Source: Tetrahymena thermophila SB210
Lineage: Eukaryota; Ciliophora; Oligohymenophorea; Hymenostomatida; Tetrahymenidae
Direction of reading: 5' to 3'
DNA length: 64,000 bases
Assembly (NCBI RefSeq): GCF_000189635.1
Contig: NW_002476400.1
Location: forward strand, 1 to 64,000
Below the pieces are notes generated by a model. That model saw nothing but the letters and a program-made list of their open reading frames with translations. It was not told where the DNA came from and searched no databases. Position numbers and translations under genes: made by a program. This document shows, one piece after another, positions 770-45,169 of the stretch (its first letter is position 1; each line of letters opens with the position of its first letter).

Positions 770-789
770 CACCTCATTCGCTAAATAAA

Positions 790-3007: not shown

Positions 3008-4279
3008 ATGTATAATAATAATAATAACAAAACTTCTAAATAATTATTAGAAGAAGAAGAAGAATTCTAAAGATATTAAATAGCAAAAGAAGAAAACTAT
3101 GAACTTTATAAGACAATAAATCCAAAAAAAGTTCTCGCATAAGATGCAATTAACAATGCAGAATTTTTGCATTAATAAATAGAACCTGAAATGTTAAAGG
3201 CAAGGATAAGAATCGATAATTAAGCAGCTATTAATGATAGTATCGAGATTAAGGTTTCTAAAAGGGATACATTATATATACCTTATAAAAATGACGAAAT
3301 TGAAGAAGAAACATAATCTTAATGGCAGATTGAACGTAATGAGGAAAAATTCTGCTAAAAAATAGAAAATACAATTCTATGTTTTAAATCAATATCAAAA
3401 GAAAAAACATTTAAAAATGTTTAAATTGTAAATCAAAGTTTATTTGGTTATGCATCACAAATAAATAGAAATTTATTTCGTTTATACTAGTTAGACAAAA
3501 AAGACTAGGAAACAAGAAAAATTATAGATTTTTAACATATCAGAAACAAATACGAATTGCATAATCATGTTTTTCATCAATAATTCATAGAAATTGCATC
3601 AGAATTTTTTACATTGGAGAAAATTAAAAATCCTTTCGATAGGACATATTATGAAAAAGTCTTGGATAATATGATTTCTCAAATTCCATTCCAGACTTTA
3701 ACAGTGGATATTGAAAGTGCTAATGATCTGATCGATCAACATCTCGTCGAATAATAAGCAATAAGATTTAATTGGTTAGTAAATTACAATTTAGTACACA
3801 TTGCTAGCTACAACTACGGAGTTTAAGAATCTAGTGGAATAGTTTTAAAATTTAATACTTCTTAAATTCCTGAAAAAAGCAAATTAAGGGAATCAAATAA
3901 ATTCTGTATCTAATTAAAGAAAATGATAATGTAGAAATAAAATAAATTCTAATAATTAGCAATATATTTTCATTAGAAAAATATGATGAAATTTCAGGAT
4001 GTTTAGAATTTTGAATTTTATTTTTCATTTGCTTTGATAGAAAAATTCTTTCTTGTACCTGATTTCCTAGGTATTCCTCTATTTGAAAGCGAATTGTAAA
4101 TCTAAAATTATCAAGATGCATTAATTAGAATGTAAAAAAGCTACATTAAAAACTTTGATCCTGTTAAACATGTAGATTATGAACCCTACAAATCTAATTT
4201 AGAAATTGATATTGAAAGCTATAGATAAGCTTAGGAATAATAAAGAATTCTGATAAATAATAAATTAAATAAATTCTGA
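3008..4279 (+). CDS. Paralogous family member 1 (single-domain), 423 aa
   Basis: ATG 3008 to TGA 4277-4279 is one uninterrupted frame. The N-terminus is low-complexity (MYNNNNN, then a Glu run). From about residue 190 a domain begins (FIEIASEFF), passes through a conserved IPFQ element in NMISQIPFQTL, and ends in FALIEKFFLVPDFLGIPL at about residues 341-358, followed by a tail with YEPYKSNL. The domain is shared with the genes at 4475 (twice) and 6912 (once); the shared signature is F-A-x-(I/V)-(E/K)-K-three hydrophobics, then D-F-x-G-x-P-L. There is no signal peptide, membrane segment or known catalytic motif. I do not recognise the family; a structural or DNA-associated role in the putative element is possible but unproven. 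Confidence 0.85.
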
Positions 4280-4446
4280 ATGTAATTTAAAATAATTTGA
4301 ACAACAAATATGAATTATTGATAACTCTAAATTAAAAATAATTTTTTTCATTCTCTATATATTTTAAAAAAAAGAAAAAAAAACAAATTAAAAAAAAAGA
4401 ACAAAAAAAAAAAAGAATAAAACAAAACAACAAAAAAAAAAAATAA

Positions 4447-4461
4447 AAAACTTTTAGTTTT
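4447..4461. promoter_or_regulatory. Palindromic intergenic motif, copy 1
   Basis: AAAACTTTTAGTTTT is an inverted repeat (AAAACT/AGTTTT around TTT). It lies 13 bases before ATG 4475 and ends a long A-rich spacer. The same 15 bases occur at 6812-6826 and 8528-8542. It could act as a promoter element for the following gene or as a 3'-end signal for the preceding one. Confidence 0.6.
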
Positions 4462-4474
4462 GAATATAATAAAA

Positions 4475-6703
4475 ATGGATAGAAATAATTAATCTTCCGA
4501 CTATGAAAAATATAGACAATAAAACAAAGAATTGTTTTAGAATAAAAAATAAATAGATTTTGGAAAGAAAAATAATGACGAAGAACAGAAACAGATAGAT
4601 AATAGTTAGATAGATGAAGAAAGTTATAAGCTAAGTTCTGAAAATCATGACAAAATGTACTAATATATTTACTAAATGTTCAAAAAAGAAATTGAATTTG
4701 AAAAAGGAAAAACTTTCTTTGAAACAGTTAGATAAAATTTCGAATCAAAGTATTGTAATAATAATGTAGTTTTAAAGGCATAAAGTATGATATAATTCAA
4801 ATAAATATCGGATATTAAAATTGAAAATAATTAAAATAATAGATAATTTTATGAAAAATTAAATAAAAGAGAAGAATTTTAAAATGATTTTTTAATTCTT
4901 GCTAAAAAGTTTTTTTATAATCAAGAATTAGGCGTTGAATTCAATGATTATTTATTCAATGAAATTTTTGATTAAATAGTTACTTAAATGCCGTTTAAAA
5001 AGTATGACATTCCAGGTGAAATATATGTAAATCACTTCATAAAATATAAAAATTTTTGTAGAGTAACAGAGAAATTCATGAAAGGAGTTGATGTTTATGG
5101 TTTGTAAGGGATTGCGAATTTTGTTATTGTTTTAAAAGATGATAATAATAATATTGAAGGGTTTGGAATGTGCACCAATAAAGATATGTTAGGTGTTAAA
5201 GGTTAGGAAGTATCTAGATTTTATAATTTAACAAAACCCATAATTCCAAGAAAAAATGTAAAAGTATGTCAGTTATAGGTTTATGTAAATATGTACAACA
5301 TTTCTAAAAGTTTATAATAACATGCATATAAATATAATTAAGACACTAGAGAATAGTATGAAATTTATCTAGCATTGGCTATAGTAAAAAAACTATTTCT
5401 AGAATGTGATTTCTATGGAGTTCCTCTAAATGAATCTGAAGCCTAGGATTTATAAAACTAGATATCAGATTTATATGATATTTACTCAGGACATTTTAAT
5501 AATGATTTAACTTTTCTTTAACCTATTATAGATATGGGTGGAGATAAATATAAATAAGTATAAGATTATTAATTAAATTTGATAGTTAAAAAACAATTTC
5601 AGCGCAAATCGGAAAACGATGAATTTGAATAATAATTCGATTCTTAAATGAATGTAGCAAGAATAAGAGTTTAGGGAAATAATTAAAACGAAGATTCGGA
5701 ATCTTCTAATAGAAATTAGGATAAATTTTATTTCAGTCTTACAGTTGAAGATTAAAAAAAAAATTAATTCCATTAAATCCTCGAAAATTTGATTTTGTGT
5801 TTCAGATTCGTAATAGAAGAAAGAATATCTGGAGATGAAACCTTATAAGGTTATGCTTAATAAATTAATGCCGAATTAAAGGAAAAACTATAATTAAAAA
5901 ATTACAGTCTATAATTGTATAGAAAGTTATTAGACCCTGTATGGGAAGCAAGAGTTTCAAAATATAATGAAGAATTTCATAAGTAATTTATGAATATTGC
6001 ATCATAATTTTTCTAGAAAAAAAAATTTGAAAATTAATTTGATAAAAATTTCTACCAAATAATAATTGATAATATGGTATCCAATATTCCTTTTTAAATC
6101 ATAACAGTATAACATAATTAGTTTGGTGATTTATTCGACTAGGAACTTATTTTTAAATAGAATTTGAGATTTTTAAATTTAATCGATGGTAATCTAGTCC
6201 ACTTAGCAAATTACAATACTGCTTTTACTCCTTCGAAAGGTGTCTTTATGACCTTTGATACAACAACATTTCCTGAAAATAGCTAAATGAAAGATCCCTC
6301 AGAATATCGCTTTGAATTGGCATAAAGATAAATAAATGAAAAAAACGAATATTAACAAGTAGCAATATACATGCATTATGAAAATATGATAAAAAAAATT
6401 ATCAAGTATCAATAAATGTTAGGATATCAAATTAAGTATGTAGATTTTTATATCATATTCGCGATGATGGAAAAATACTATTTGTTTCCTGATTTCTTAG
6501 GTATTCCTTTGAGTTAGAATGATTTAAGGAATTATTAAGATTCGATGATTAAAATACAGTAAAGTTATATTAGAAGTTTTAATCCGTAATATTAATAAGA
6601 TTATGAACCATATAAAACTAACCTACGTATCACAAAAGAAAAATATAGTGAATTCTAAAATATTCAATACTAAGAATTAAAAAAAAAATTAAGCTAATTT
6701 TGA
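4475..6703 (+). CDS. Paralogous family member 2 (two fused domains), 742 aa
   Basis: One frame runs without TGA from ATG 4475 to TGA 6701-6703. It holds the family domain twice. The N-terminal unit begins near residue 139 (FLILAKKFFYNQELGV) and closes with LALAIVKKLFLECDFYGVPL at about residues 299-318. After an acidic, Gln/Asn-rich linker, the C-terminal unit begins near residue 505 (FMNIASQFFQKKKF) and closes with IIFAMMEKYYLFPDFLGIPL at about 660-680, then YEPYKTNL. The C-terminal unit is closer to the gene at 3008 (shared PDFLGIPL and YEPYK), while the N-terminal unit is closer to the gene at 6912 (CDFYG-PL). So this gene looks like a fusion or internal duplication of the two types. There are no introns and the function is unknown. 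Confidence 0.86.
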
Positions 6704-6811
6704 ATTTAATTTATGAGTGATTTAAATAAATGAATAATATAATGATATTACACTAGATAAAAAAAATATTTTTTTCTTTATATATTATATTTTTAAAAAA
6801 ACAAAAAATAA

Positions 6812-6826
6812 AAAACTTTTAGTTTT
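6812..6826. promoter_or_regulatory. Palindromic intergenic motif, copy 2
   Basis: The same AAAACTTTTAGTTTT palindrome lies between the genes ending at 6703 and starting at 6912. The surrounding bases (AAAAATAAAA before it, TAAATATT after it) also match copy 3 at 8528. The first ATG after it, at 6842, opens only a short frame; the real start is 6912. Confidence 0.6.
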
Positions 6827-6911
6827 AAATATTAATAAAAAATGAAAAATAATTTTTGTGAAAAGATAATATATTTAATAATAGAAAAGTAAGTAAATAA
6901 CATAACAAAAA

Positions 6912-8390
6912 ATGAGTAACAGAAAGTCAAAGAAAACAAGTAATTCTCAGGATTTAAATGACATTGAGATTTCCTAACGAGTTTAGAAAAAAAGAATGAA
7001 AAAAGAAGAAAAAGAAGAAAAAGAATAGTAAGTAGAAGAAAAAATACAATAAGTTTCTAATTAAGAACTTATTTTTAAAAAACCATAAGGTAGGCCTTAA
7101 TATTCTAACAACGCAGCAATGAAATAATAAAATGAAAAAATACTTTAAAGTGAAACTTCACCCTAATGTACAGATTAACGTATTCTTGAACTTGGAATGA
7201 AAGTGTATAGTACGAATACACCTATAATAAAATCAAGAATAAACGCACTTAATATGGATACATACACTATTAATCCTGAATCATAATTTATGTTTAGTAT
7301 GTTTAGAAATAAACAATATCCTGTAATTGAAAGCAAAGATTTTTCAGAGGTAACTATAAAGCCTAGATTACCTATATCAAGTTAAGGTCAAATTCCAGAA
7401 TTTAAATTCTAAGAAATAAATATGGAAGAAATAATAGATAATCTTAATGAATGCTTTTTAATCAAATAACAGTTATCTTAAGGAAGTAATAAGTAAACAT
7501 TGTATGAATATCTCTATTAAAAAAAATAAGTTGTGTATAATAGATTAGACATATTCTAAAAATTAAGTGAAAAGAAATATTACTTCACTGTTGTTCATAA
7601 TCCTAACACCAAAAACGATTATGATACTCTCTATCAATTCTTTAACCAGATTTTCATGGAAGTTTTTTAAATCCATTTTAAAAACAAACTTGGAAATCAA
7701 ACTCCATTTAGCGAAGTCTTATTCAATAATTTGGTAGATAAATTAGTTGTTTAACAACCATATGGGTGCCTTGATTTAACAAGAGAATAATTATAAAATC
7801 ATATGTTAAATCCAACAAATGTTTAAAATTCAAAAAGATTTATAGATACTGTGGATAAAAATTTAAAACATTTTGCAACTTTTATTGCCGGTTGCAGTAA
7901 AAATTAATCAGATTTCGTTGATTATGTCGTTTTTAATTACGAAACAGTATCGTATTTTATTAAAAAATCTATTCCTAATTTGAAAACATTTGATAATGAA
8001 ATGAACTCGAAGGATAAATAAATTATTTCTACAAAAATGATTTATTTCCATTAAAAGGAAATTGAAAATTTAATGGATAAAATGTAAAAAATGTTTAATT
8101 AGGATTTGAGCATATAATTTAACTTATATTTTGCTTTTGCTGTAATGAAAAAATTGCTATTCTCATGTGATTTCTATGGAGAGCCTTTAGTATTATTTGA
8201 ATCGGATAATTTTATTTTAGCTAATGAAGAACTTCAAAAAAGCTACACTGGAAAGGAATTTGATAAGAAAAATGATATAAATAAACTTCCATATTTCTTC
8301 AATGTTCAATCTAATCCATGCATTTACAAAATAGAATAAAATAAATAATTAAAAATAGTATATGAAAAACTAAACAAGAGATTATTTTGA
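6912..8390 (+). CDS. Paralogous family member 3 (single-domain, charged N-terminus), 492 aa
   Basis: ATG 6912 to TGA 8388-8390 is a single open frame. The frame is closed upstream at 6843, and no other ATG lies between. The N-terminus is highly charged (KKEEKEEKEQQVEEK) and includes KKPQGRPQ, which resembles an AT-hook core, so DNA contact is conceivable. The family domain occupies roughly residues 240-430, closing with FAFAVMKKLLFSCDFYGEPL at about 407-426. This matches the N-terminal unit of the gene at 4475 best. It has no introns, signal peptide or known enzyme motif. It converges on the RNA polymerase relic that follows. Confidence 0.85.
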
Positions 8391-8542: not shown

Positions 8543-8635
8543 AAATATTTAAAATAAATAAATAAATAATTAAAAAAATAAATAAATAATTAAAAAAAAA
8601 AAATAAATAAATAAAATCACATCAAATCAACATAA

Positions 8636-10811
8636 TCATATATTCTATTTTGGTTTGAAATAAATAGACATACCCAAAGAATTCAATAAATCCTTAAAGT
8701 GTTTCGATGAATATTATATTTATGTTTTAACAACTTCACTTTTACCGTTACAATTTTTACAATAATATTTTTATTAATTCTAATCTCTATGCGCATATAA
8801 ACCACAATGAGAACATATATCAACAACAAAACCATCTGAGTGCTACCATGCGAATTATTTTATTACATTTGTTGTACCTGCAGATAAAAATGCAGCCATT
8901 TCCATTTCACCCAATCTCGAACCTCCATTATTCTTTGCACCATCTCTAGGTTAAAATACTTAGTTTCTATAAGCTTCATTAAATCCTACAGCATAAAGTT
9001 TACTAAACGCTTTCTATTCTTGAGCAGCATAAAATACAAATCCAACTTGAGCATATCCAATAAATTCTCCAGTTAAAGGATAATAAATCTTTTTCTATCC
9101 CAATATATTTCTTTATATTTCTTCTTATCTATCTATCTTCTTCACTTTGATTTGTATCATTAAGATTTTACATTTTATTATAATAATCTAATAAATGTTT
9201 ATAAGTTTTATTAAGTTAATCTTTTACATCGCAAAACATTGAAGAATCCAAAAACAATCCAGTTAATAACACAAGATAAGAAGTATATTATTCAATATTC
9301 ATACCTATTGTCATTCTGGTTGAAAATGAACAAGGATTAATTATAATATCAATTGGTGTACCATCATTTGTATATGGCATTTAATTTTCATCTCTAATTG
9401 TTCCAATTGTTCCCTTCTATCCGCATCTTGCAGCATATTTATCACCAATTTAAGGATATAATGGAATAATAAATCTTATTATAATTTTTTATTATCCATC
9501 AACATTAATTTATTTCACTTTTAAAATTATTCCTTCTTCATATTCAAACTTTATAGACCTATCAATTATTTAATCTTCTTGATTTAAAATTAATATTTTA
9601 CCTATAACAATATCACCTTTTCTTACAACTGAACCTTCTCTAATTAATCCATTTTCATCTAATTTTTCATAATTTAAATCATGTTAGAAATTTTTAACAT
9701 CTCCATTCTTACCTTTAATTATATCTGTCTGGTCTTCCTATAATTTCAGTCGATCCAGTTTATTATTTCTAAATAACAACTTCTATTATATCTTATTTAC
9801 ATTATAAATACATAGATTTTGCTAATCTGGATGAAATTGTAATAGAATCTTCTTGTTAATATCCATGTTCTTACAATACTGCAATACATACATTTGTACC
9901 GTTAAACTTTTCATTTGTATTTATCATATTTGTTGTCATTGTTTAAACTAAAGGAGCAGAACCTAAAATAAGATATTAATTTATATCAGATCTCAAATCA
10001 TTATCACTATATGGTTTTTAAACACTTCTCTTCATCTGAACAAAAGCAAAAATATTTCTAGGTGCATAATTACAATGAGGATAAGGAATAGTCGAAGGAT
10101 TTATACCTAAAACATTTATAGGATGAATTTCCATCAAATCAAAATTTAAATATACTCCTACATATCTGTTTTTTTCTTATAATGATATATTTTTTTATTA
10201 TCCATTAATTCTACTATTTCTTAAAAAGTTATTATATTCTAATATTTGAGCACTTGGTGAAACTAATTTATTACTTATTTCTTAAATATCGCACCATTCT
10301 ATACTTTAAGGAAATTCAGATAAAAATTATTCCCAAGTTTATATTTTCTTTTTAACAATTAATTAATCATATATTTAATTTTAATCTTTTATTTCTTAGA
10401 ATATTTAATTATTTTAATCTTTAGTTTCAATTACAAATAAAGGTCTTATCATTCTTCCACTATCTCCATAAATTAAAATTTCATTCCATTATCCTTAAAC
10501 TTCGAAAGTAACATATCTAGGAATTTTACCTTGAAATCTTCCTTATCTTAGATATTATATTGTTGAATATGGATCATTTGTTAAAAATAATAACTTACCG
10601 AATAAATATATCTTTGTTTTATTTTAGATTTATTATATTTACATAACTCTTACTTAATGTTTTCATATAAAAATTAATTCTTCCTTCTACATTAAAATCT
10701 TTCAAAAATATTACAATCTATTTATTTCATACATTTTAATAAGATTCTCTATAAATATTATTCTTCTAAAATATTAATCGCTCTTTTTTCAAAATTAAAC
10801 TTATTTTCCAT
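8636..10811 (-). pseudogene. Relic of RNA polymerase second-largest subunit (RPB2-like), truncated
   Basis: Minus-strand translation shows conserved blocks of the RPB2/beta-subunit family in the right order: YGDSGRMIRPLF, then IHPINVLGINPSTIPYPHCN, then QQEDSI, then IGDKYAARCGQKGTIG of the catalytic region, then INPCSFSTRMTIGMNIE, then PRDGAKNNGGSRLGEMEM, then a C-terminal zinc ribbon (CSHCG... and CKNC). In the family these blocks lie in the C-terminal half; the N-terminal half (roughly 600 or more residues) is missing. The copy is broken, with at least three interruptions. Several family-invariant positions differ from typical eukaryotic Pol II (AARCGQKG rather than ASRHGQKG), which hints at a viral or plasmid polymerase rather than the host gene. 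Treated here as a fossil, possibly part of the virus- or plasmid-like left block. Confidence 0.88.
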
Positions 10812-10922
10812 ATATCTTATTTATCTTGTACTTATTAATAATTACCATCTATTTTTCAAAAGTTAATTTAATTTCTTATTTTAAACTCTTATTAAATTTT
10901 ACTCACTATTTTATATTTATAT

Positions 10923-11165
10923 TTTATTTTCTCAGTAAAAATCATTCTAAAATGTTAATTAAGTGCAATTTTGAATATGAATTTTTATTCAGTATTTATT
11001 TTCTCATCAAAATCATTCTAAAATGTTAATTGTGTGCAATTTTGAATATGAATTTTTATTCAGTATTTATTTTCTAGTAAAAATCATTCTAAAATGTTAA
11101 TTGAGTGCAATTTTGAATATGAATTTTTATTCAGTATTTATTTTCTCAGTAAAAATATTCTAAAT
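10923..11165. repeat. Tandem repeat, 71-bp unit, just over three copies
   Basis: The segment ATCATTCTAAAATGTTAATT recurs at 10941, 11012 and 11083, each followed by TTTTGAATATGAATTTTTAT and CAGTATTTATTTTCT. The units are almost identical, so the array is young. It lies between the start of the polymerase relic and the point where the giant-gene array begins. Confidence 0.9.
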
Positions 11166-14100
11166 TATTATTATATAAATGTGTTAAAAAAAGCTAGTCT
11201 AAAAAATTAATCGCCAGACCTCACTTTTCCCTATATATAAAGTATTCAGTAAAAGGGGTAAAAAATAAAAAGTTGCCCAATTGGTTTCTGCATTATTTAA
11301 GTTAAAAGTAATTAAAGATATTGCTTTCAGCTAGGTGCTTACCTGGGAGATTAGTAATATGTAGGAATAGAAAGTTTATCTCAAAGATGTCTGGCTTAGT
11401 TTGAAATTAGTAAAATTGGTAAATATTAACAAATAAATAAATATTCGCTTTAGTTTCTTTACTTCCAAGTTATTTATTGAAATTATCCCACCAAAAATAA
11501 AATAATTATATTAATATAAAGGTTTATGAAAATTATTAATAATTAATAAAAATTGTTAACTAAATCAAAAGGTATTGATGAATGTGGTGATCCAAATTAT
11601 TGCATATTCTAAATACCAACATCGTAATTTTATCAATACATACTTATTATAAACATGCAAGTGTATATTTTTTTAATTTTTTATCTAATTTAATAGAATA
11701 AGATCTAAATAGTAAAGATATTTATGCCATTCATTGTAATTAGAAAGCACTTAATATCCAGGAAATAGGGTTCCTGCAAAAAATAATTTAGGGAAATGTT
11801 AAGATCTATTTTTATGTAAGTTTTCACTTATTTGATTTAAATAAAATGAATGAATGATAGAAAGTAATAAAATTAAATATAAAAATAATAGCCTCCACAA
11901 TCAGCTGTGTTGATGGTTTTTTATGCATCAATGATAAAGGTGAGTGTCAACCATTAAGTATTAATCAACCAATTGCTAGAGATGTTTTCTAAAAATGTTA
12001 ACCAGCATACACAGATTAATCTTTATATTGTACTGTGGGCTATTGTTTGCTAAATTAAGTTTGTCTGCCTTTGTCTGTTTAGAATCCTGGGAGAGAAGGT
12101 AAAACAAGTAAATGCCTGTAAGAAGGAGAAAAAGGAGTCTTTGGTGCAATATAATGTTTTCAAAGGTTTTTATTTAGATTTTATAAATCTAAAATTTAAT
12201 TTAATTTAAATAACTTAGCTTTTGTTTGAAAGGTATTTCAGATGAACCCCAAGATTAATTTTGTGCTCAAATAGATTTTAAAATTAGTTCTTAAGTTGGT
12301 AAAAAGACTTTCAAATTTTAATTTATAAATTATGAATTAAATAATTATCATAGGCAGATACAAATAATCTCAAAAATGTGTTAAGGAAGATGACAATAAT
12401 AATCTTGTTAACAATTTTAAGATAGTAAAATATTCATCTAAATATAATTTATTCATTTCTGTATTTACATTTATAAAAGGAATATTGTTTCAAAGGAGAA
12501 TACTGTATTAGGAAAGATAGTTAAGGAATTTAATTTTGTTCCAAAGTATTGAGTAATGATATTGTTTGCTCTGATGTATACGGGGCTTGTATATTTTCTA
12601 AAGACCCTATATAGAATTGTTCAAGTTGTTCTTACACAGAATGTTTAAATTAGTAAACTAAAAAATGCATTCCTTTAGGAGCAGTATACTGCTAAGATTA
12701 TAATGGTATTATTTTATATTTTTATTTTTCTAAACACAAAATTTATTTAATTATTTAGGATTTTGCTCTAATTTTTAGTCATCAACTTAACCATATTGCG
12801 TAGTTTGTCCTAAATATTATTGCTTAAATAAAAGGACTTAGCTTTGTATCTATTATAAGTATATGTATAACTTACAATACTCTTAAACCAATTGTCTTTA
12901 CTAGTTTAGATAAGACGAAGAATGTATATTGTAAGATATCAACTCTGTTAATAAATATTAAGAGAATTTATGCATTGATAATAATTATTTTTGTTTACCT
13001 ATAGCTGAAGCACAAAAAACAAAAAATTGTCTATTCTGTCCAAAATATTATTATAATCCTGGAGATGGAATTTGCTATTAAAAATCAAACAATAATAATT
13101 ACCCTTACTTTAATCTAGATATTTAATATGTATCTGAAGATTGTTACCCAAAAAGCGATTGCTTAATTTCAAACTAAAAATGTCCTGAAGGGTAATTAAT
13201 TTCTTTTATTAATTAGTTATGTGAGTTAAATTAATTTTAGTTACTGTAATGTTTTTTTCACACTTAAAAAAAAGTTTTATACAAGTTATTGCAACAAAAA
13301 AAAGTATTCCATAATATAAATTTAAATAAAAGATAAATATGTTTAAAATTTAAAATTATTACATTATATCAATAATCCACATTTTTTATGTTATTTAAAA
13401 AAAGATGCTAGAAATGTGATAATCTAAATATGTGCACTTAATGTATAGAGGATTATTTCTTATATTAAGATAAATAGACTTAAAATTAATTTTGTATTAA
13501 GTGTGATACAAATATATACACCACCATAAGTTAAGATCCAATTTTAAGTTAATATGGCACTTAATCATATAAATGTGTAGAATGTAACATCTAGGATGAA
13601 GACTGGTATTTATTTAATTTTAAATTTTAAGATAAATAAATTAAAATAATAAACATATCTATCTATATAGGAATTTAAATTCTTTGAAATATAAGAATTG
13701 TGCAAAGATGGTAGTGTAAATTGCAGGAATAAAAAGATTTACGAATAATTATTCTAAATTTTTGTATTACATCATTCAAAGTGGAAATTCTCAAAACTTA
13801 GATTCAAATTAAGCTAATAGACAACTTGCTAGCCTAATGATACAAAAAAAGCAAGTTTCTCCTTTTGCATGTAAATAATATATATTTAAGATTGAATTAA
13901 TATGTGCAAGATAATAAATAATTAATTTTTTATATTAGGTTCCAATCTGTGTATAAGGTGTGATTCCAATCCAAATAAAAAACCATATTGCTACAGATGT
14001 GTTGATTATTATTACTCTGACTAAAATGGTATCTGCTAATAGTGCCCTTTAAACTGTTAAAAATGTGGAAGAGCCTTATTTGATTAAAACTTCTTACCTA

Positions 14101-14676
14101 TCCTTATAGATGATATACCAAAAGAAGATTTAGATTAAGGAATTTATGATTTTTCTAAATCTATATTTGCATGTATCGAATGTAATACCTAGTACACTGT
14201 TAGTCCGAATTTTAATTAGTGTGATTAATGTGGTTTATATTGTCTCGAGTGCGCTTATGGTATATTTACAATTTTTTTCAATAAAAAATTTTATAAACTA
14301 TAAAAAAATATAAGAATTTTAAGGAGACTTAGTAAATTATAGAAAATAAAATTTTAGAAACGAGGTATACTAAATTTTAAAATGTATAAAATGCAAACCA
14401 GGTTATACATTGTCTTCAAATAGTAATTTTTTTATCATATCTTAAATAATACATTCATAAATTAATTCATTTAAATTTTAGGAAAAGATTGTGACAAGAT
14501 CTAAGAATTTAGTAATTGTTTAGATTAAGATTTAAATGACTTAAATACGGGTTTATCTTTAAGGACCTACCTTGATTTATCTTCAAATTCATCAAAATAA
14601 TATTGTATTACATGTAATTACAATTCATGCTTATATAATAATAGCTCATGTGTAGATATGAGCTATTCTCCTAGAA

Positions 14677-15121
14677 GTAATTCACAATATTATTTTTATA
14701 AAATTTTATTTATCATTCTAAAAATAAAATCATATTGCCAGATAAAAGAGTTTTAGTTTCACTAAAATAAATATTTTTTAATTGCAAATTTTTCTGAAGT
14801 GATATAATAACTTTTATAACTCTATAATCATATAAATAATTATTAAGTTAAGTTATTTTTTCTCTCTTATTATATTTTTAACCTTGATTAGAGGTAAACA
14901 ATTTAGATTACGAAATTTTTAATCACTTAAAATAAGAAGGGTATTAATTTTAAATTGTTGATTAATTACTAAAAACCTTATTTCTCAACATCCATATACC
15001 AATAATATTAAATTGATTAAAATTTTGAGCTCTCACTATTAAAAAACTAAAATATTTTTTTAAGTGTTAGTTTATATTTTCTTTATTAATCATTGTTTTT
15101 TTATAATTCAAAAAAATTTAG
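14677..15121 (+). other. Intron 19 of copy 1 (long intron)
   Basis: This GTAATTC...TTTAG intron of about 445 bases interrupts the Cys-rich region between CCT-AGA-A and AT-TAT-GTT. Matching introns occur in copy 2 (30093-30580) and copy 3 (45170-45661). In copy 4 the coding sequence runs through the same place with no intron (around 59,096-59,160). Confidence 0.75.
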
Positions 15122-15156
15122 ATTATGTTTATAACTGTGAATATGCAAATAATGGT

Positions 15157-15192
15157 GATGACGATGATGATGATGATGATCATCATCATCAT
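15157..15192 (+). repeat. In-frame Asp8-His4 microsatellite forming a DNA palindrome
   Basis: Eight Asp codons (GAT/GAC) are followed by four His codons (CAT) in exon 20 of copy 1. Because GAT and CAT repeats are complementary when inverted, bases 15167-15192 form a perfect 26-bp palindrome around GATC. Copies 2 and 3 have short Tyr/Ser-rich stretches here instead. Confidence 0.9.
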
Positions 15193-18100
15193 AAACATTC
15201 TTATTATTATTTAACTACATTAAATACTTGTTTAAACGGATCTCCAACTATTTATTAAGGAGGAAGCGTATCTTGTGATTTCAATACTGAATGCAAAAAA
15301 TAGGTAAATATTAAATTATTTTTAATGAGTCTTATTAATGTTAAAAATAAAGATATATTAATGTCTTGAGTGTTTTGTTTCGACTGATAATACATATTAA
15401 TGCAAAGTTTGTTCTTAAGGATATATTCCAAGCATTTTTGGATGTATACCTTGCCCTGAAACTTGTTAAACCTGCTATGAAGAAGGATATATTAACTTTT
15501 AAAGAGTTAATTTTACTAACTACATAATCAATACACCTTAAACCACAATCAATTTTTCTTTATAATAAAGGCTTAATTATAAAAACATTTTTATGATAAA
15601 AATGAAGTGCTCAGATTGTAAATTTGGTTCTTTTCTTGATTATACACAATAAAATTGTTAAAAACCTTAATGTGGTAAATACTGCCAAAATTGCATAAAT
15701 TTTAAAGATAGTCCTTTATGTATATCCTGCAATTATACAAAACTTTTCAATCTCATAGCTCCTATTTAAGGTTATATATCTAAACTTCATTACGGAACCA
15801 ATTTTCTAAGCAACTTCTAATAAATGGTCACATTTGACTCTTAATAAAAAAATTGCTAAATTTGTCCACTTCTGTAAATTTTTTAATTTATTTAATTTCT
15901 TATAAAAAATTTTTCAGATTTTATTCATAGATCTAAAATAATAACTTAACATTATTCTTTCATAATAATTTATAAAATTTAAAAATAGGAACTTTGTTGT
16001 TAAAATATTTTAAACAATTATTTTTATAAACAAAGAAATAAACAATTTTGTTTGAAATAATTTTAATATAGAATTTTAATAGAAATAAAATTTTTTAAAT
16101 AATTTTTTGGAGAAAGATTTATAAATTTTTCATTTTTAAAATTCTTTTATTAAAATAATTTAATATTTCTTATTAGATGTGAAACTTGTGAAGATAACCA
16201 TTTAGATTTTGTTTTAGATCCTTTAAGTTTGTATAAAGTAAAATGCTATTCTTGTAAACAATAATTACCAAGTAATTACGGAGATATGTAAAAATATGAA
16301 ATCAGATATGATAAAGCAAGAAAGAGATGCATTTATTGTCTGAAAAATGATAATGGGTGCTATTTTAAAAAAAAAAGTGAGATCTTTGCTGAATGTGGGA
16401 CAGCTAGCCAACCGTTAGGTAAAGGTACGTTTGATGAACCACTTAATTTATATAGAATAAATGAAATAAATCTTGATAAATTTATAATAAATGAACCAGA
16501 ATTCGATATATCATTAGCTTACTTTAATGAACTTCAACTAAAATAAATTGATTTTACCATAAATTTCATTGATAAATCAAGAGTTTGCACTTTGGACTTT
16601 GCTTTAAATATCAACACAAATGTTAAAAATAAGATTCCTTCAATTTAGACTCTTTCTATCACTTTGAATGCAAACTAAACTAACAGTTTAACAGATTATG
16701 TAATGTTATAAAAAGACATAGCTACTTTTAAAGGTTTTAGCTCATTTAAGATTTAAAATATGAATATCTAACCAAAAGATTTGAATAAAAATTTTGGTTT
16801 CAAAATATATGAAGACCATGTAAATAATATAGAATTTTAGAACACAACATTCTTGTGCTAACGCTAATATACAAACTAACTTTAAACATATTTCGATAAT
16901 TTTAATGGGACATTTATCATGAATAACACCTTGTTTAATAACTGTAGCTTTTATTAATAGACTCTCATAAATGTTCATTCAGACTTTTAACCTACATTTA
17001 TAACTTACTAATTGATAAATTTGTCTATCTTAAATTCAGATTTTTCTCAAAAATCTAAGTTTATTTCAGTTAGTAGCCCTAGCAATTTAGATATTTAATA
17101 TTTTAAATTTATGCATGGATCACTCAGTTATCAATCATATGTATTTGCAAGTTACTTTTATGGCTAAGAAATTACAAGCATTTCAAATGTTACAAACATG
17201 TTGTTTTAAAATTCTACGTTTTTAAGCTATTCTTAAATATTAAAGGGGGAGAGATTTATGTATTTTTCTCTCATAAATTTTACTTTTACTAATTCAAATT
17301 GCTAGCAAAATTAATATTAAAAAGTGAAGATGCAGTTGTTCTAAGTTAACACAATAAAAGCATAAAATATAATAATTTAATCAAATTATTTTGAAAAAGC
17401 ATAATTCATTTAATTTTCTCCTGTTCTTGATTTCTAAGATTAAATGATTATTAGCCTAGACTAAATTATAGTGTTTAATAATACTTTTAACTCTTTTGAA
17501 TAGTTATTTTTTAGTTAAAGTGGTAAATTTAAAATGGATGTGATAATCAGTAATTTTAATATATCTCAAAATAAATACAGCTAAAATTACAACATATACT
17601 ATTTTTAAGTTAAATAGACAAATTCTTTATTATTAAGTAATGGGAATATTAATGAACCATAGCTTATAACAATCATACAAGCTTTTGGAGTGAATAAGGC
17701 TTCAATACAGACACTATTATTTGGAGATAAAATTAGTCAAAGCATATCGCTAAACTTGATAAATATTTAAGACTTGATTTAATAAGTAGAAATGAAAAGT
17801 GTAATATTTAATCAAATTATTGCTGATGAGATATTACTTATTGTCAATTAATTAATTACTAATTAATTTGACCCAAATCAATTTTAGGCAACTTTCAACT
17901 CAATTATATTTAATTAGATCATGCTAAGAAAATAAAAAAGCATTAAACTTAATATACAAATTTTTAGTGCTGCTTAAATCACAATCATGCAAGGATATAC
18001 TAAAATGAACTTTATATAAGCTTATAATACAATTCAATCACCTATAAACTTTTAAGTAAAATTTTAATTTATAACCAATAAAATTATTTATTTATTTACA

Positions 18101-21100
18101 ATTTTTAACATAAAAAAAGACTGATACCTTTTTTTCAACAGTAATTAACTTGAAAAATGTAATTGGGAAATTAGAAATAATAAATTCAAGAATTATAAAT
18201 GACTAGAATCATCCTAACCATAATCTTCTTTATATCTAAGGAAGCTAAATTTAGATACAGAATTCAAACTTTACAATACATGCAAATAATCAATAAAAAT
18301 TATAGTTTTTAAGTGGTAGTAATAGTATTCTAGGAGGTATAGCAATGATACAATGTTCAGCTTTAAAAATATTAAGCAGTATTTTTAGTGGTGGATTATC
18401 GCTTTAAGGAGGAGGTTTATACATATAAGCTACATCACTTGCTAATATTTATATCTTTTAAACAAATTTCACAGAGAATTGGAGTTTTTCTTTAAGCGAT
18501 CTTAAAAACTCTAATGGAGGAGCTATTTACATTAATTAAATGCAATAAAATTTAGGTGTAACCCTTAGATTTATTTAATGCCTATTTTCTAATAATTTTG
18601 CTTATAGCAAGGGAGGAGCATTGTATGTGTCTTCCAGTTATAATAAATTTTATTTGAATTTGCTGTTATCCAACTTTTCAAACAATTTTTCTTATGACGG
18701 AAGTAGCTTATATTCCTCTTAGAAAAACTTTTTAAGCATAGTGTAGATATAATAAACTTGTAATTTATATTCCTATAAGTATATCTCAGATTTTATCATT
18801 GAAATCGAATAATTTGTATAACCAATGAGCATTTCTCCAAGTCTATATTGCTTGTAAGGTTTTAATCAGGTTTACTTATTATAAAATACATTTTTAGTAG
18901 AGGAAACAAGTTTTTAGCTTAATTCTAAAGAAACTTAGTATTCGTTTATCTTTTAAAGTTTAATTATCTTTGATTCGATAAATTATCTTCAACTTGCTTA
19001 AAATAAAATAAGTAATTTTAAAGTATAAAATTACTTACTTAAAATGACTAATATAAAAAACTTAAGTTTGTCAAAAGATTAATTTTTTGATAATTAATAA
19101 ATAATTTATAATCTAAATCTATTTGTAGCAGATTCAATGATAATAATTTAAGCAAATTCAATTAAATTGGAGTAAATTATTTACATAAACAATACTTGCA
19201 GTAAATGTGCTTAAGGAAATTTGCGGGTAATTTCTAATCACATTTTAATTGCTGATAGCACTTTTCAATTGAATACAGCTCTAAATGGAGGAGCTCTTTC
19301 AATTTCAAAATATATAGAAGATGAAATAATTACACTTAGATTTTTACATTTTTATTCATATTATGAAGAATATTTAATTAGAAAATCAAATTAAAATTAA
19401 ACAATTTATAATTCAACATTTTTAAAAAATACTGCTTTGAATAACGGAGGATCAATCTTGGCATAAAATACTTATTTATACATAATAAAAAGCAAATTCT
19501 AAGAAAATAATGCAAATTAATTTGGAGGAGCAATAGTGTCTGATCTAAATGATAAATTGGATCAATTTTAAAAAATCCACTTAATAAAAAATATATTTTA
19601 CAGTAATAAAGCTAGAATCGGAAGTAGTTTTTATCAAATGTAGAATCTGCCACTACACTATCATTTTGATAATAAGCTATCTTAAAACGAAGCATAACTT
19701 TACAATAATAATCTAATCTAATTTGCTGTTCAATTTATAGGCATCAAGGATAAATAAACTTACAGAAAATCTTTATCAATAAATAAGCATTTGAGTGGAA
19801 AATTTAAGGTAAAAAAAAATAAATTTAAATTTGTTTACATAATATTTACATGATGATATCATTTTATTATTATAACATAATGAAAACACTAATTTGATGA
19901 GATAAAGAGAATTTATTAAACTAATCTATTAATTATGAATTAACCATTTATTTTATACTTAAATAAAATTAAATTCTTTTAATTAAATAGGATGAAATTG
20001 TTCTGTAATTAGTTAATAATGAAGATTAGCCTATAACAACTCTGAATGAAGAAATTAAATTAAAAGTTTAAGTTTTGAAAGGAGAAGATTATTACATTGA
20101 TTAGAATTATATATCATAAAAAAGTGGTATTTTTCACATAAAAGATAAAATAAATGTTTTTGGAAGGCTTGGAAAACAAATAATATTATAAATATCTTCT
20201 GAGTATGCCAAGTCTCCTATTTATAAATAAGATGGTGAATTAATTAAAATGGAAACTAATATTTCTTTTGAGATAGAAATAAATATAGCTGAAAAATGCT
20301 CTGTAGGTACAAGTTATTTTAATGATACTATAAAAAAAGATATATGTAATCCCTGCCTTGAATTTATGTATAATTTAAATGACGGTGATAAATGTCATAA
20401 ATGTCCAGATAATTTTTTATGCAAAAAGACTAGCATTTATTTACCAAGAGGATTTTGGAGATCAAAAAATAATAGCTATAATTACATCGAATGTTACGGA
20501 TACTTTTAGTGTGTAGGAGACATTAATAGAATAGGAATAGCAGAATAGTATTCAGATGAAAATCGTTATTGTGAAGAAGGTATTAATTAATTTTAACTAA
20601 AAATTCAATTCTAAAATTAACTTTTAACATTAAAGGAAATATTGGAGCATTATGTATGGATTGTGATTTGTATGGAAAGTATTGGAATGAAAGGTATTAT
20701 CAAGCTGCAACTTACACTTGTTTAAAGTAAAATAATTAAAATTTCTAAAAATTAATTTGTTAATAAAAATATATAAATAACTAGATGTGGATAATTCAAT
20801 GCTAATTTAATGATCGACATCATAGTACTTCTGCTTAGTATAACTTTGTTTATCAAAATTGCAAAATCTATTTTTATGCTGATGGACTATTTAAAAATAT
20901 AAAAAGTATTTCAAGTTTTGAAAATATACTTTAAATATGATTAAAGATTTTTTGTAATATCTAACATTTTACTTAATTGCTTTACTCAACTGTCATTGTG
21001 TGCAAAAAATATGATTTACTTGCCAATATATTTAAAGTAGATTTTTCTAGGTTTTGGAAATCCATCAGAAATCATTCTAAAATTACTTGACTGTGTATTG

Positions 21101-22206
21101 TCTTAGAGTATTTACTTTTAAGATAATTAACAATCCTACTACTATGTTAGAATAATCATTCTGTAGATATTTAACTTTTTAATTTGTTTTTTTGCGCTTC
21201 TTTGCTTTATAATTTTAAAAAACTAAGACCATTTAGCTCATATGTCTGTCTTAATATATTTCATCATCCATTTATTAACTCATACAATAGATTCAACTTT
21301 AAGAATGGTAATTAATTAATTAATTTTCTATTTTTAATATTTTTAATTCAAATTAATTCTAAAAAAAGATATTTTGCATTTAAGTAGATGATTAATTCTA
21401 TGTAAGCTAATATCCTAATATTAAATGTGATGATGACCATTAATTTTTTGTTAAAAAAATGCTAACACCTTGTTTTTGCTTTTAACTGCTCTTTATTTTT
21501 TTAATTTTTATCTATATTTATAGAGAAAATAAATCCTTTACTAATTGCAGGAAAATTTCAAGTACATTTAACTAATTCTATAAACATTATTGGTGGTATT
21601 TTTACTAAATACTGATAAGACTGCTGATAATAGTAATAGATAATTACTTCATTTTTGATGTATATTTAAAAGGCTCAGTATTATGCTCTTTGTATTTGTC
21701 ATACACCCTAACACTGCTATACTGTAAAATAATTTTTATTTAAACATAAAAATATATTGTTAAATTATAAAATAGTTTACCCTTACAATAGGCTCTAGTT
21801 TAATTACTTTGAGATTTTTATTTCTATTTTAATAACTATCAACTTTGGAATGATTGAAAATCTGAATTAATTTTCCTATCAAGAAAGAATTTTTATTGTA
21901 TTTTTAGCTTTGAATATTACATGTATTAGCGGATTCTTATATTGGGTAACTAGAGATCAAGTTAAATTAGTAATTAAAAAAATTGTAAGTAAAACTAAAA
22001 AGAATAGTATAAATGCTAAAAAAAAGTAATCTCCAATACTTTTGTGGAAGTTATTAAGGCTGAGAATATCCAGTATGTAGATATAGATTGATAAATATAA
22101 TGAAAAATAATTTTATAGCAACATATCAAAATACATTCCAAAATAAAATACCCTTTTTAGACATTTAAAAAAAAATTAATTAATTATTACTAAAAATAAA
22201 TATTGA

Positions 22207-24718: not shown

Positions 24719-26845
24719 ATGAGGATTTTTATTGTAATATAAATCATTTTTAGTCATTATATAATTTAAACAAAAGCAGATCTATGTGGTGAAAATTAAT
24801 GCTATTCAGTATTTATAAATATGTGCATATAGCTGTCTTCTGATATTGTAGGAATAGATTCTGATAGCTAAAAATGCTTATTTGATAGAGATATAGTCAA
24901 ACAGGTGAATAAATGTTTTGATATAGAAAAAAATGGAAAAAGTAATGTCTGCAAAAATAAATAAAATACAATGTGCATAAAAATAACTGAAGATATTTAG
25001 GATTAATATATAGGGATATATAAAGATGCTTAAATGAATTTGATTTGCATAGAAAAACAAGATGTTACTGATCAATTGAAAATAGACATTCCTCTAAGTA
25101 AATATAAATTAAATTACTAGTAATAAATTAATTAATATCTTTTGAATAAATCAAATTTATTAGTTTTAATCAATCTAAAATTTGAATATTGTCTGAAAGA
25201 TGACTTTTCGTTAGATGAATTTTATTAAAAGCCAAATAGTATGAAATGTAGCTGCAAATATTAGTATTTTTTATTTTATTTATTTATTTTTGAGTTTAAA
25301 ATACTATAATTCTTAGATATTGTCTATCTAATGACATTTGCATACCTATGGATTCAAATTAAAATGCAGCAAGAGATATTAATTAAAATTGTGCATAACT
25401 TAATTAAGAAGGGTAAATTTAGTCTTGCTTTAGTGATAAAAGTGTTTGCTTACTAAAGAATTCAATCACATAAATAAACAAATGCACTACTTATGAGTCT
25501 ATAGATGATGTAATTGGTGTTGCGTTTATTAATCAAACTAATGAATGCATCTTCAAAGACAAATATGCAGATTTAATTATCAATAAAAGTATTTAATTAC
25601 TATCTTAATTATGTCAACTTATTTAATTATTCAAAAATATTTAGATTTAGTATTTTTGAAAAACCCTTATTGTCTTTTTGAGTCTTCTCATATTCTACAA
25701 GTTGGAGATTTAAATAATAACATCGTCGGAAGAACCTAACAATATTTGTGTGCTAAAGAAAACGAAGTATTTTCTGATGATGATAATTTAATTGAAATGT
25801 GCATTTTTGGGTAAATTTTTTCAGTTTTATTCTTAAAAACTTTGCTACTATTTAATAATTATTTATTAGATTTTGTATTTCAAAATATTCTTGCGTTTAA
25901 ATGGATGATTTTGAAAATATTTCTAAAAAAAATGATAATTCATGCTCAACTAACTCAGAAACTGAGTTTATAGAGTGTTTTTACTCCCCAGAAGAAAAAT
26001 CTACATGCATTTTAGAGGATAATGGTCAGAAATCTTGTGAATTGATGACAATAGAAAACCCAAAAACTTTTGTAATTTTTTCTGTTTGCAATTAATCTAT
26101 TTAATTAGGTATTTTTATAAAATTTAGGGTGCTATTTATAAGAAAGAAAAGAATCAAATAGGAACCTGCATTTCTTAAGATGTACGTATTCTTAAATAGT
26201 CTTTAGGTATTTTTTTTTAATTAAAAAAATTAGTTTCATTATGTTAAATATGTTAAACTTAGATAGTTAAAATTAAAAATTAATATGCTCTGATGGTTCT
26301 TGTATATTGTAAACTGTAGAAAAATAGTGCCATAATAGGAGAATTTTAAAAGATGGTGGTGGTGGTAGTGGAGGTGGTGGTGGTGGTTAGTAAGTATGTG
26401 AAGATATATATTATGTCTAATGTACTAAAATGACATATACTGGGATAACTTCTACTTAAGACGATGATGGCTATTGCCAGCCAAGTTTTCCTTCGTAAAT
26501 ATAAATTTCATGATGATATAATATTAACTTTAATCATAAAATATAGAAAAAAATGCCGCAAGGCTAAATAATGTTTAATGGATGGTGTTTGTGTTGATAT
26601 GTCTCAAGATACATCCCTACCTAATTTTGCCAAAGAAATAATTACCACCTCTTGTCTCCCTTATTAAAGTATTCAGTAAAAGGGATAAAAAATAAAGAGT
26701 TGCCCAACCGGCTTCTGCATTATTTAAGTTAAAAGTAATTAAAGATATTGCTTTCAGATAGGTACTTACCTGGAAGATAAGTAATATGTAGGATTAGAAA
26801 GTTTATCTCAAAGATGTCTAGCTTAGTTTGAAATTAGTAAAATTG
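24719..26845 (+). other. Copy 2 exons 1-7 (signal peptide and N-terminal Cys-rich modules)
   Basis: Exons: 24719-25263, 25317-25588, 25645-25810, 25870-26071, 26128-26206, 26263-26494, 26547-26845. Introns of 52-59 bases separate them. All begin GT and end AG. The intron-4 donor GTAATT was chosen because copy 4 splices at the same place and copy 3 lacks the next possible GT. Exon 1 encodes the leader and module 1; exons 2-5 repeat the module in diverged form. Confidence 0.85.
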
Positions 26846-29800
26846 GTAAATATTAACAAATAAATAAATATTCGCTTTAGTTTCTTTACTTCAAAATTAT
26901 TTATTTATTAATACTGTGCACACTATAAATATAATAATTAAATTAAGATAAAGATTTATGAAAAATAATAATTATTAATTAAATCAAAAGGTATTGATGA
27001 ATGTGGAGATCCTTATTATTGCATATTCAAAATACCAACATTGTAATTTTAGCAGCATTTAAATACTAAAGAATATACAAAAATATAATTAAAAAATTTT
27101 TTATCTAATTTAAAAAAATAAGATCCAAAAATTAAAGATATTTATGCCATTCGTTACAATTAGAAAGCACTTAATATCCAGGAAATAGGGTTCCTGCAAA
27201 AAATAATTTAGGGAAATGTTAAGATCTATTTTTACGTAAGTATTCACTTATTTGATTTAAATAAAATGAATGAATGATAGAAAGTAATAATATTTACTTA
27301 TAAAAATGATAGCCTCCACAATAAGCTGCTTTGAGGGTTTTTATTGTATCAATTATTAAGGTTAGTGTCAACCTTTAAGTATTAATCTACCGATTGCTAG
27401 AGATGTTAACTAAAAATGCTAACCAGCATACACAGATTAATCTTTATATTGTGCTGAAGGCTATTGTTTACTCAATTAAGTTTGTCTACCTTTGTCAATT
27501 TAAAATCCTGGGAGAGAAGATAAAACAAGTAAATGTCTGTAGGAAGGAGAAAATGGAGTCTTTGGTGCTATATAATGTTTTTAAAGGTTTTTAAATTTCG
27601 ATTTTACAAACCAAAAATTTAGTTTAATTTAAATAACTTAGCTTTTGCTTGAAAAGTACTTCAGATGATACTCAAGATTAATATTGTGCTCTAATAGATT
27701 ATAAAATTAGTTCTTAAGTAGGTAAAAAAACTTTCAACTTTTATTTATAAATAATTAGTTAAATAATTATCATAGGCAGGTACAAATAATCCCAAAAATG
27801 TGTTAAGGAAGATGACAATAATAATCTTATTAATAATTTTAAAATTGTAAAATATTCATCTAAATATAATTTATTGATTTCTATATTTACATTTGTAAAA
27901 AGGAATATTGTTACAAAGGATAATACTGTATGAGAAAAGATAGTTAAGGAATTTAATTTTGTTCCAAAGTATTGAGTAATGATATTGTTTGTTCTGATGT
28001 AAACGGGGCTTGTATATTTTCTAAAGACCCTCTACAGAAATGTTCAAGCTGCTCTTACATGCAATGTTTAAATTAACAAACTTAAAAATGTGTTAATTTA
28101 GGAGCAGTATACTGTTAAGATAATAATGGTTTATTTTAATTATTTGTTTTTCTAAATAAAAAATTTATTTAATTATTTAGGATTTTGCTCTAATTTTTAG
28201 TCATTAGCTTATCCATATTGCATAGTTTGTCCTAAATATTATTGCCTAAATAAAAGGACTTAGAGATGTACTTATTATAAGTACATGTATAACTTATAAT
28301 ACTCTTAAACCAACTGTCTGTACTAGTTTAGATATGACGAAGAATGCATATTGTAAGATATCAACTCGGTTAATAAATATTAAGAAAATCTATGCATTGA
28401 TAAAAATTATGTTTGTTTACCTATAGCTGAAGCACAAAAAACAAAAAATTGTCTATTCTGTCCAAAATATTATTATAATCCAGGAGATGGAATTTGCTAT
28501 TAAAAATAAAACAATAAAAATTACCCTTACTTTAATTTAGATATTTAATATGTATCTGAAGATTGTTACCCAAAAAATGATTGCTCAATTTCAAACTAAT
28601 AATGTCCTGAAGGGTAATTAATTTCATTTATTAATTAATTATTGGTGAATTAAATTAATTTTATTTACTGTAGTGTTTTTTCAATACTTAAAAAAAACAA
28701 GTTATTGCAACAAAAAAATATGCATAATTATTTTAGATAAAAGATTTAAATTAAAAAATATCATTTTAAAGTTTATTTAAAAATTTTTACAATATATAAA
28801 TAATCCAAAATTTTTATTTTATTTAAAATAGATGCTAAAAATGTGATAATCTAAATATGTGCACTTAATGTAAAGAGGATTATTTCTTGTATTAAGATAA
28901 ATAGAATTAAAATTAATTTTGTATTAAATGTGATACAAATATATACAGCAACATTAGTTAAGATCCAATTTTAAGTTAATATGGCACTTAATTTTATAAA
29001 TGTGTAGAATGTAACATCCAAGATGAAGACTGGTATTTATTTAATTTTGAATTTTAAGATAAATGAATTAAAATGATAAAAATATCTATATAGGAATTTA
29101 AATGCTTGGAAAAATAAGAATTGTGCTAAGGTGGTAGTATAAATTGCAGGAATTAAAAGATTTTCGAATAATTATTCTAAATTATTGTATTACAGTATTC
29201 AAAGTGGAAATTCTCAAAATTTAGATCCAAGTTAAGCCAATAGATAGCTTGCTAACCTCATGATACAAAAAAGACAAGTTTCTCCTTTTGCATGTAAATA
29301 ATATATATTTAGATTGAATTAATATGTGCAAGATTACAAATAGTTAAACTTTTATCTTAGGTTCCAATCTTTGTATAAGGTGTGATTCAATTCCAAGTAA
29401 AAAACCATATTGCTACAGATGCATTGATTATTATTACTCTGACTAAAATGGTATATGCTAAAAGTGCCCTTTAAACTGCTAAAAATGTGGAAGAGCCATA
29501 TTCAATTAAAACTTGTAACCTATCCTAAAAGATGATATACCGAAAGATGATTTAGATTAAGGAATTTATGATTTTTCTAAATCTATATTTGCATGCATCT
29601 AATGCAATACCTATTACACTGTTAGTCCGAGTTTTAATTAGTGCGATTAATGTGGTTTATATTGTCTTGAGTGTGCTTATGGTATATTTATAATTTTTTC
29701 AACAAACAAATTTTAAGAAACTTTAAAAAAAATATAAGAATTTTTAGGAGACTTAGTAAATTATAGAAAATAAAATTTTAGAAACTAAGTATACTAATTT

Positions 29801-37531: not shown

Positions 37532-38649
37532 ATTAATCAAACAAGTAATTCTACTTTTTTTACTTTTTAGAATTAAAACAAAATAAATATTTTATTTTAT
37601 ATTTATAAATTTGTATTCTTGTATTTATCAAATTTATTAAAAAGATTATTCTTTAAAAAAATACTATTAATTTATTTAAAATAGATTTTTAATTTTTTAA
37701 TTTTTCAAAAAATAAATTTTAATTCTGTTTTATAGCTGTTAATACATTAATTAATTTATTACTATGTAATAGTATTGAATAGTTGAAATTAGCAGTAGAT
37801 ACTGTTAAAAGGAAAAATGAATATCAAAGATAATTTTTTGAAAATTTTTTTGATGTTAGATTGACCTGCATCGAATTTCAAAAAAAAGATAACTATCATT
37901 TGAGCATTTATAATGACTAAAATTATAAAATTTATTTTAATTAGCTATTTAAAATTCATAATAATTATAAAATAAAGGATATACCAAAATTATGTTGACA
38001 CATAATAATAAATAGAGATGTTACATTTCTAATTGAAAATAATGATTATAATATAAAAGTGAGTGCTTTAATTGTCAATATCCACTTGTTCCAACTTAAT
38101 TATGTATCACAATCTACACCATTTTACTTAAACTAAAATAAAATTTTCTAATCCCATAAAAGTTAGAATGAATTAAAAAATATCTTACTTATACAGAAAT
38201 TTGTTATTTTAAAAAATTTGATCACTAGTAATGACTGACTGATTAATCAAGTGAGTAGTTAATTTTTTAATTAGGAAAAATAAATTTGGCTATAAATTTA
38301 TAATAGAATTAATTATTAATAACAATAATTATAATTTATTATTCTTTATTAAATTTAAATTAATGCGAGGATTTATAAAATTAATAAAAATTACAAATAC
38401 TATACTCATAATACATATAAAATTTAAGAGCATCTCCTATTATTAAAAAGAAAAATTTAATTAAACATAAAATGTATATTTTCATTCAATCATCAATCAA
38501 GAATTTTTTTGATTAAATATTCTGGAAAATATATGGAATTGCTATAATTTCTCAAATTATAATTTGTAAAAATATTTTCTAAACACTCTATATATTAAAG
38601 AAATAAAATAAATAAAATTTAAATAATTAAAAATATATTTTATTTATTG
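37532..38649. other. 3' flank and spacer after copy 2
   Basis: The first 200 bases or so match the 3' flank of copy 3 (52,678-52,850), then the two diverge. The rest is A+T-rich apart from the coding-like relic at 37,741-38,238. Confidence 0.55.
37741..38238 (+). pseudogene. Coding-like remnant of an unidentified gene between copies 2 and 3
   Basis: One frame reads as plausible protein for about 165 codons (for example RLTCIEFQKKDNYHLSIYND, VSALIVNIHLFQLNYVSQST, LIQKFVILKNLITSND), interrupted by a single TGA at 37996-37998 and ended by TGA at 38236-38238. An acceptor-like TTTTATAG precedes it at about 37,728-37,735. It has no convincing start codon. I do not recognise the family; it does not resemble the giant genes. 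It could be an exon scrap of a displaced gene. Confidence 0.45.
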
Positions 38650-41383: not shown

Positions 41384-41426
41384 GATGGAGATGGTGGTGG
41401 TGGTAGCGGCGGTGGTAGTAGTGGTT
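41384..41426 (+). repeat. Gly-codon run in exon 6 of copy 3
   Basis: This is an interrupted GGT/GGC/AGT run encoding DGDGGGGSGGGSSG, matching the linker at 26,352-26,388 in copy 2 but with different length and interruptions. Confidence 0.8.
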
Positions 41427-44400: not shown

Positions 44401-45169
44401 AAGATTATAAATAATTAAACTTTTATCTTAGGTTCCAATCTATGTATAAGGTGTGAATCAAATCCAAGTAAAAAGCCATACTGTTATAGATGCATTGATT
44501 ATTATTACTCTGACTAAAATGGTATATGCTAAAAGTGCCCTTTAAACTGCTAAAAATGTGGAAGTGCCATATTCAATTAAAACTTGTAACCTATCCTAAA
44601 AGATGATATACCGAAAGATGATTTAGATTAAGGAATTTATGATTTTTCTAAATCTATATTTACGTGCATCTAATGCAATACCTAGTACACTGTTAGTCCG
44701 AGTTTTAATTAGTGCGATTAATGTGGTTTATACTGTCTTGAGTGTGCTTATGGTATATTTATAATTTTTTCAACAAACAAATTTTAAGAAACTTTAAAAA
44801 AAATATAAGAATTTTAAGGAGACTTAGTAAATTATAGAAAATAAAATTTTAGAAACTAAGTATACTAATTTTTAAAATGTGTAAAATGCAAACCAGGTTA
44901 TACATTGTCTTCAAATAGTAATTTTTAATCATATCTTGAATAATATATTAATTCATTTACATTTTTAGGAAAAGATTGCTATTAGATCTACTAATTAGGT
45001 TATTGCTTAGATTAAGATTAAAATGATTATAAAACTGGTTTATCTTTAAGGACCTTCCTTGATCTATCTTCAACCTATTAAACACTTAATTGCTTAACAT
45101 GCAAATACAATACATGCTTATACTTATATCGTTAATCATGCATAAATTTTAACTATTATCCTCCTGGAA

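Follow-up and report, generated by a model that had tools for sequence, protein, structure and literature searches.

A giant ciliate gene copy cut off within exon 7, largely undecayed, and joined to satellite-bearing DNA

What kind of event leaves a gene without its 5′ end, the break lying in the middle of an exon, while the remaining coding sequence stays almost undamaged? The question is raised by a 64-kb stretch of DNA (the window, 64,000 nucleotides), whose comparison with itself reveals four plus-strand tandem copies of one very large gene. The ciliate code is used throughout, TAA and TAG being translated as glutamine; under table 11 the window has no frame as long as 200 codons, and under table 6 it has many. 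The code, a GC content near 22% and introns modelled at about 47–492 nt suggest a Tetrahymena-like genome. Copy 1 (11,201–22,183) is 87.4% identical to copy 2 (26,632–37,540) and, from 11,228, 87.7% identical to copy 3 (41,704–52,686); copies 2 and 3 share 91.8% identity across 14 kb, and copy 4, spanning from about 53.9 kb to the window end, is more diverged. No domain match was obtained for this family except a short PMP-type repeat. Exons were modelled with a small purpose-written gene finder and are concordant among the copies, the numbering of exons varying with the calling of introns.

Table 1. Features of the window discussed in the text.
Feature	Position	Strand	Basis
Tandem family of related ciliate-code frames	3008..8390	+	Mutual alignment; no family match
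RPB2-like gene (RNA polymerase second-largest subunit), domains 4, 6 and 7 only	8636..10644	-	Pfam and alignments
71-bp tandem repeat, 3.4 copies	10923..11164	.	Repeat search
Junction between left DNA and copy 1 exon 7	11215..11238	.	End of homology and satellite-like element
Remaining 3′ part of copy 1 exon 7	11229..11418	+	Homology and gene models
Remaining exons of copy 1, as far as the 3′ end	11744..22183	+	Self-comparison and models; gene end approximate
Copy 2, full length	24719..37540	+	Self-comparison and gene models
Copy 3, full length, with frame-breaking 7-nt insertion 51104-51110	39751..52686	+	Self-comparison and gene models
Copy 4, cut by window end; 5′ exon boundaries uncertain	53702..64000	+	Self-comparison and models

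Exon 7 measures 299 nt in the models of copies 2, 3 and 4 (26547–26845, 41594–41892 and 55591–55889), and in copy 1 about its last 180–190 nt remain, ending at 11418. Homology to the full copies thus stops abruptly within the gene, as in a 5′-truncated member of a tandem array. The initial annotation had copy 1 begin inside exon 7, which the models bear out; the start of homology, which it put at 11,165, has to be moved to about 11,229–11,241. Solid homology begins near 11,238, and the similarity of the 30 bp preceding 11,228 is marginal, an equal score being reached by 9 of 500 shuffles against copy 2 and by 46 of 500 against copy 3.

On the other side of the break lies the 71-bp satellite, whose units match no other place in the window at an E value below 0.005 and whose exact pattern has no hit in viral_contigs. 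Degenerate 17-bp relatives of its units occur at 10,765–10,781 and 11,198–11,214; because the second resembles both the satellite and the left-side element, the left DNA should extend to about 11,214, leaving the join within 11,215–11,238. Our search identified no repeat or microhomology able to mediate the event. An origin by chromosome breakage was rejected, the breakage motif having no matches at up to two mismatches and 11 at three, against 11.25 expected, and so was a telomeric origin of the junction, since a telomere-type repeat has no matches with up to two mismatches.

How intact is the remainder of copy 1? The exon of 1,879 nt said earlier to recur in all four copies does so (16177–18055, 31536–33414, 46641–48519 and 60137–62015, each directly followed by GT), but its designation as exon 22 does not hold in the present models. 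The further statement that the exons of copy 1 keep frame and length is largely borne out: 11 of 16 align to copies 2 and 3 without gaps, and in the other five the indels private to copy 1 are all multiples of three except one +4/−1 pair with its members about 38 bp apart. Two of the exons (14482–14676 and 15122–15303) align poorly, hold three private indels of 3, 3 and 42 nt, and were excluded from the codon analysis. The last modelled exon, of 76 codons, lacks codon-position bias, so that the 3′ end of the model looks wrong: its frame is probably incorrect, and the gene probably extends beyond 21,615.

No in-frame TGA occurs in copies 1, 2 or 3 over the 14 exons compared, which amount to 2,523 codons including the 76 of the doubtful last exon. 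The exons of copy 1 carry four private indels (+3, −6 and the frame-restoring +4/−1 pair) in 7,603 bases, and its introns 33 in 2,198 bases, 31 having lengths not divisible by three. Had the exons drifted neutrally at the intron rate, about 107 frame-breaking indels would be expected in them along the whole path of copy 1, or about 43 once the portion shared with the copy 2/3 stem is set aside (a synonymous share of 21/52). The dN/dS ratio is 0.247 on the copy 1 path (95% interval 0.206–0.315) and 0.23 between copies 2 and 3 (0.189–0.287), implying a neutral fraction on the former of 2% (−7 to 13%). When changes are polarised with copy 4 over 956 codons, the copy 1 branch bears 21 nonsynonymous and 21 synonymous changes, a ratio of 0.239. 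The ratios of copy 2 (0.195), copy 3 (0.100) and the stem (0.123) are lower, although the difference falls short of significance (Fisher p 0.15), and that of copy 1 is far from neutral expectation (binomial p 1.4e-5); by itself this branch test is compatible with some time of relaxed selection on copy 1. The 3′ flank (21616–22183), with one private indel in 568 bases, is unfit as a neutral control, as it looks partly coding.

An old pseudogene is thereby rejected: there are no stops in 2,523 codons, dN/dS stands at 0.247, and the sole off-frame indels compensate each other. The data agree with the earlier reasoning that an ancient cut would have let the copy decay, and since copy 1 has barely done so, the truncating event should be recent. 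That argument omitted two other routes to an intact truncated copy, namely a misjoined assembly and a shortened but still functional gene.

Two further observations concern copies 2 and 3. A 7-nt insertion at 51104–51110 in copy 3, without counterpart in copies 1 and 2, puts a long exon out of frame, so that at this point the truncated copy is cleaner than a full-length one. Over the region corresponding to 11,241–13,930, copies 2 and 3 have a mutual identity of 0.915, against 0.902 and 0.906 to copy 1, and past these first 2.7 kb they are closer to each other (0.934–0.975) than either is to copy 1 (0.867–0.930). Copies 2 and 3 are thus mosaic, a pattern that gene conversion would be expected to leave, and giving the entire gene one branch length is therefore a simplification.

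The DNA to the left of the junction had been described as foreign-looking, a view its composition does not bear out. Its GC content per kb is 0.190–0.248 left of 11,000 and 0.174–0.273 to the right, and GC3 is 0.197 in three left genes, 0.202–0.206 in the four giant-gene copies and 0.113 in the RPB2-like gene. Codon use in the left genes correlates with that of the copies at 0.957–0.967 (0.982–0.996 among the copies), and glutamine is encoded by TAA, TAG, CAA and CAG 112, 23, 22 and 11 times in the three left genes (1,657 codons) and 156, 39, 42 and 6 times in copy 1 (2,646 codons). The block contains host-like genes and no recognisable transposon genes. Its tandem family has members at 3008–4279, 4475–6703 (two related halves) and 6912–8390, which align to the first of them at 24–41% identity; no meaningful match was found for them in Pfam, PHROG or PDB, and their predicted structure is poor (mean pLDDT 40.6). 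A pattern-based search for a foreign or viral source found no relatives in viral_contigs or genome_contigs, collections of viral, bacterial and archaeal DNA in which absence says little about ciliates. Flanking the left-block genes, a conserved stretch recurs at 4346–4492, 6795–6913 and 8434–8627 with 79–81% mutual identity, possibly as the remains of tandem duplication. Farther left, positions 744–1760 comprise a 102-bp tandem repeat of 2.9 copies and a related unit that recurs several times in inverted orientation, and inverted arms such as 1453–1487 and 1585–1619 display full complementarity.

Next to the satellite, and reading away from the junction, stands the RPB2-like gene, which is itself incomplete. 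Pfam recognises Rpb2 domain 4 (E 3.8e-15), domain 6 (5.8e-37) and domain 7 (3.3e-16); its alignment begins at residue 561 of S. pombe Rpb2, and the first ATG available to it lies at 10,644. The N-terminal domains 1–3 are absent from the three minus-strand frames of 10,560–11,262, and six frames of 1–1700 and one of 1622–2857 were likewise scanned for them with negative result. Two frame changes in the gene need not be pseudogene damage, as both can be explained by short introns assumed at 9780–9738 (43 nt) and 9227–9188 (40 nt), with which the gene would read through. The sequence is divergent: its best matches among solved structures are, piece by piece, archaeal, eukaryotic Pol II and large-DNA-virus subunits, and tblastn of one of its frames against phages returned only distant polymerase subunits, below 60% identity. 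Oxytricha is said to possess an RPB2 paralogue, reportedly treated by Khurana in 2014, and would thus be alike in having an extra RPB2-like ciliate gene; the one found here is confined to domains 4, 6 and 7.

The RPB2-like gene and copy 1 therefore stand head to head, each without its facing 5′ half, with the satellite alongside. The absence of both halves beside a satellite is most simply explained by one deletion or rearrangement, or by a collapse of the assembly. We tentatively favour, at somewhat less than an even chance, the reading in which copy 1 is the left-edge member of the array and lost its 5′ end in a recent chromosomal event, the simplest form of which is a single deletion. Such a deletion would span the facing 5′ halves of two divergently oriented neighbours, the minus-strand RPB2-like gene and the plus-strand giant gene, and would have removed some 560 codons of the former, the spacer, and about 1.9 kb of the latter including its putative signal peptide. 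We infer that both halves went in one event, treated here as a deletion, with the join taken as real DNA. The RPB2-like gene may instead be naturally short or an old paralogue, which weighs against a shared deletion, as does the GC3 of this gene, which falls below that of the other genes.

Could the join itself be an artefact? The leading competitor, which we regard as a substantial if lesser possibility, holds that both copy 1 and the RPB2-like gene are complete in the real genome, and that broken ends were joined at the satellite by a misjoin or collapse of the assembly. It predicts the same picture as a deletion, with both flanking genes deprived of their facing 5′ ends, and it would account naturally for the almost complete lack of decay in copy 1. 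Satellite-like DNA meets a mid-exon position at the join, the 71-bp repeat is located there, and satellites are also a typical point at which assemblies fail. Against it, the satellite resembles left-side sequence at 10,765–10,942, so that the left side appears unbroken to about 11,214, and reads should be able to tell the copies apart, since these differ at roughly 10% of positions.

It is rather unlikely, in our estimate, that copy 1 is a functional shortened gene maintained by selection and starting at a new in-frame ATG within the satellite. The frame is indeed open from 11,052 into exon 7 and offers an ATG at 11,094, and the constraint on copy 1 is similar to that on the full copies; yet an equally long open frame follows 42 of 105 ATGs in sampled noncoding stretches, which leaves the open frame little weight. 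The putative signal peptide, as read from the N-terminus of copies 2 and 3, would be gone, and a recent loss accounts for identical data.

The alternative raised at the outset by the initial annotation was that the left block, of at least 11 kb, lies inside exon 7 as germline-limited DNA excised during macronuclear development, with exons 1–7 farther to the left. The ciliate code and the intact remainder of copy 1 are in its favour, but we found no further support for this reading, which emerges weakened and in our view highly improbable, no usable excision boundary having been found. With the modelled exons of copies 2–4 as tblastn queries, exons 1–7 went undetected in 1–11,260 (best E 0.18). 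The best blastn match among those listed (E 2.8e-8) pairs 53,221–53,307, which precedes the modelled exons of copy 4, with 4,814–4,894, and is AT-rich. TTAA direct repeats with CACTTT inverted termini were not found at the exon boundary. One decamer, 11178–11187 on the minus strand, also speaks for this reading in having the orientation expected for a right-hand end and in matching TTAACACTTT, the terminus of T. thermophila coding-region elements given in PMC5182062, at all but one position. It lies some 40–60 bp outside the end of homology, however, so that excision would leave foreign bases in the exon, and terminus-like matches occur in the window at chance density (32 found against 26.2 expected, with as many in 9 of 100 shuffles).

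That over 11 kb of DNA with genes of its own should be removed precisely from a coding exon during macronuclear development, so that a gene seemingly broken in the germline is whole in the soma, is likewise scarcely to be expected. According to PMC5182062, high-confidence eliminated sequences of T. thermophila are 82% intergenic and 16% intronic, and lengths of up to 43.4 kb occur, so size alone is no bar to a removable block, whose left end would lie beyond the window. The six solid coding-region elements of that account interrupt ciliate exons as the present block would; they are exceptionally short, flanked by TTAA repeats, end in CACTTT inverted termini and are excised precisely, whereas the block here exceeds 11 kb, bears genes, is one-sided in the window and has no usable terminus at its junction. 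Eliminated sites are under-represented in exons according to PMC3276166. The modelled introns of this locus (47–492 nt) also weaken any parallel with Paramecium. Introns in that genus measure about 20–35 nt, unlike those modelled here. Exonic eliminated elements are common in Paramecium, as stated in PMC8354472.

Returning to a recent deletion or rearrangement, the closest comparison is with the tandem gene arrays of Tetrahymena, likewise ciliate genes in tandem copies, for which PMC6564038 names unequal crossing over as the likely mechanism by which parts of genes are gained and lost. The arrays described there centre on leucine-rich-repeat genes, whereas the family in the window has no domain match beyond the PMP-type repeat, and copy 1 is cut in mid-exon and adjoins another incomplete gene.

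Were the left block in fact removed precisely in the soma, it would be an exonic eliminated sequence of large size, in contrast to the short examples reported for Tetrahymena. As it stands, the locus is a local detail, a truncated copy at the edge of its array that is useful either in cautioning against an assembly join or in exemplifying a gene broken recently. Of note is how strongly selection has acted on copy 1, a gene seemingly without a start, because this dates the break.
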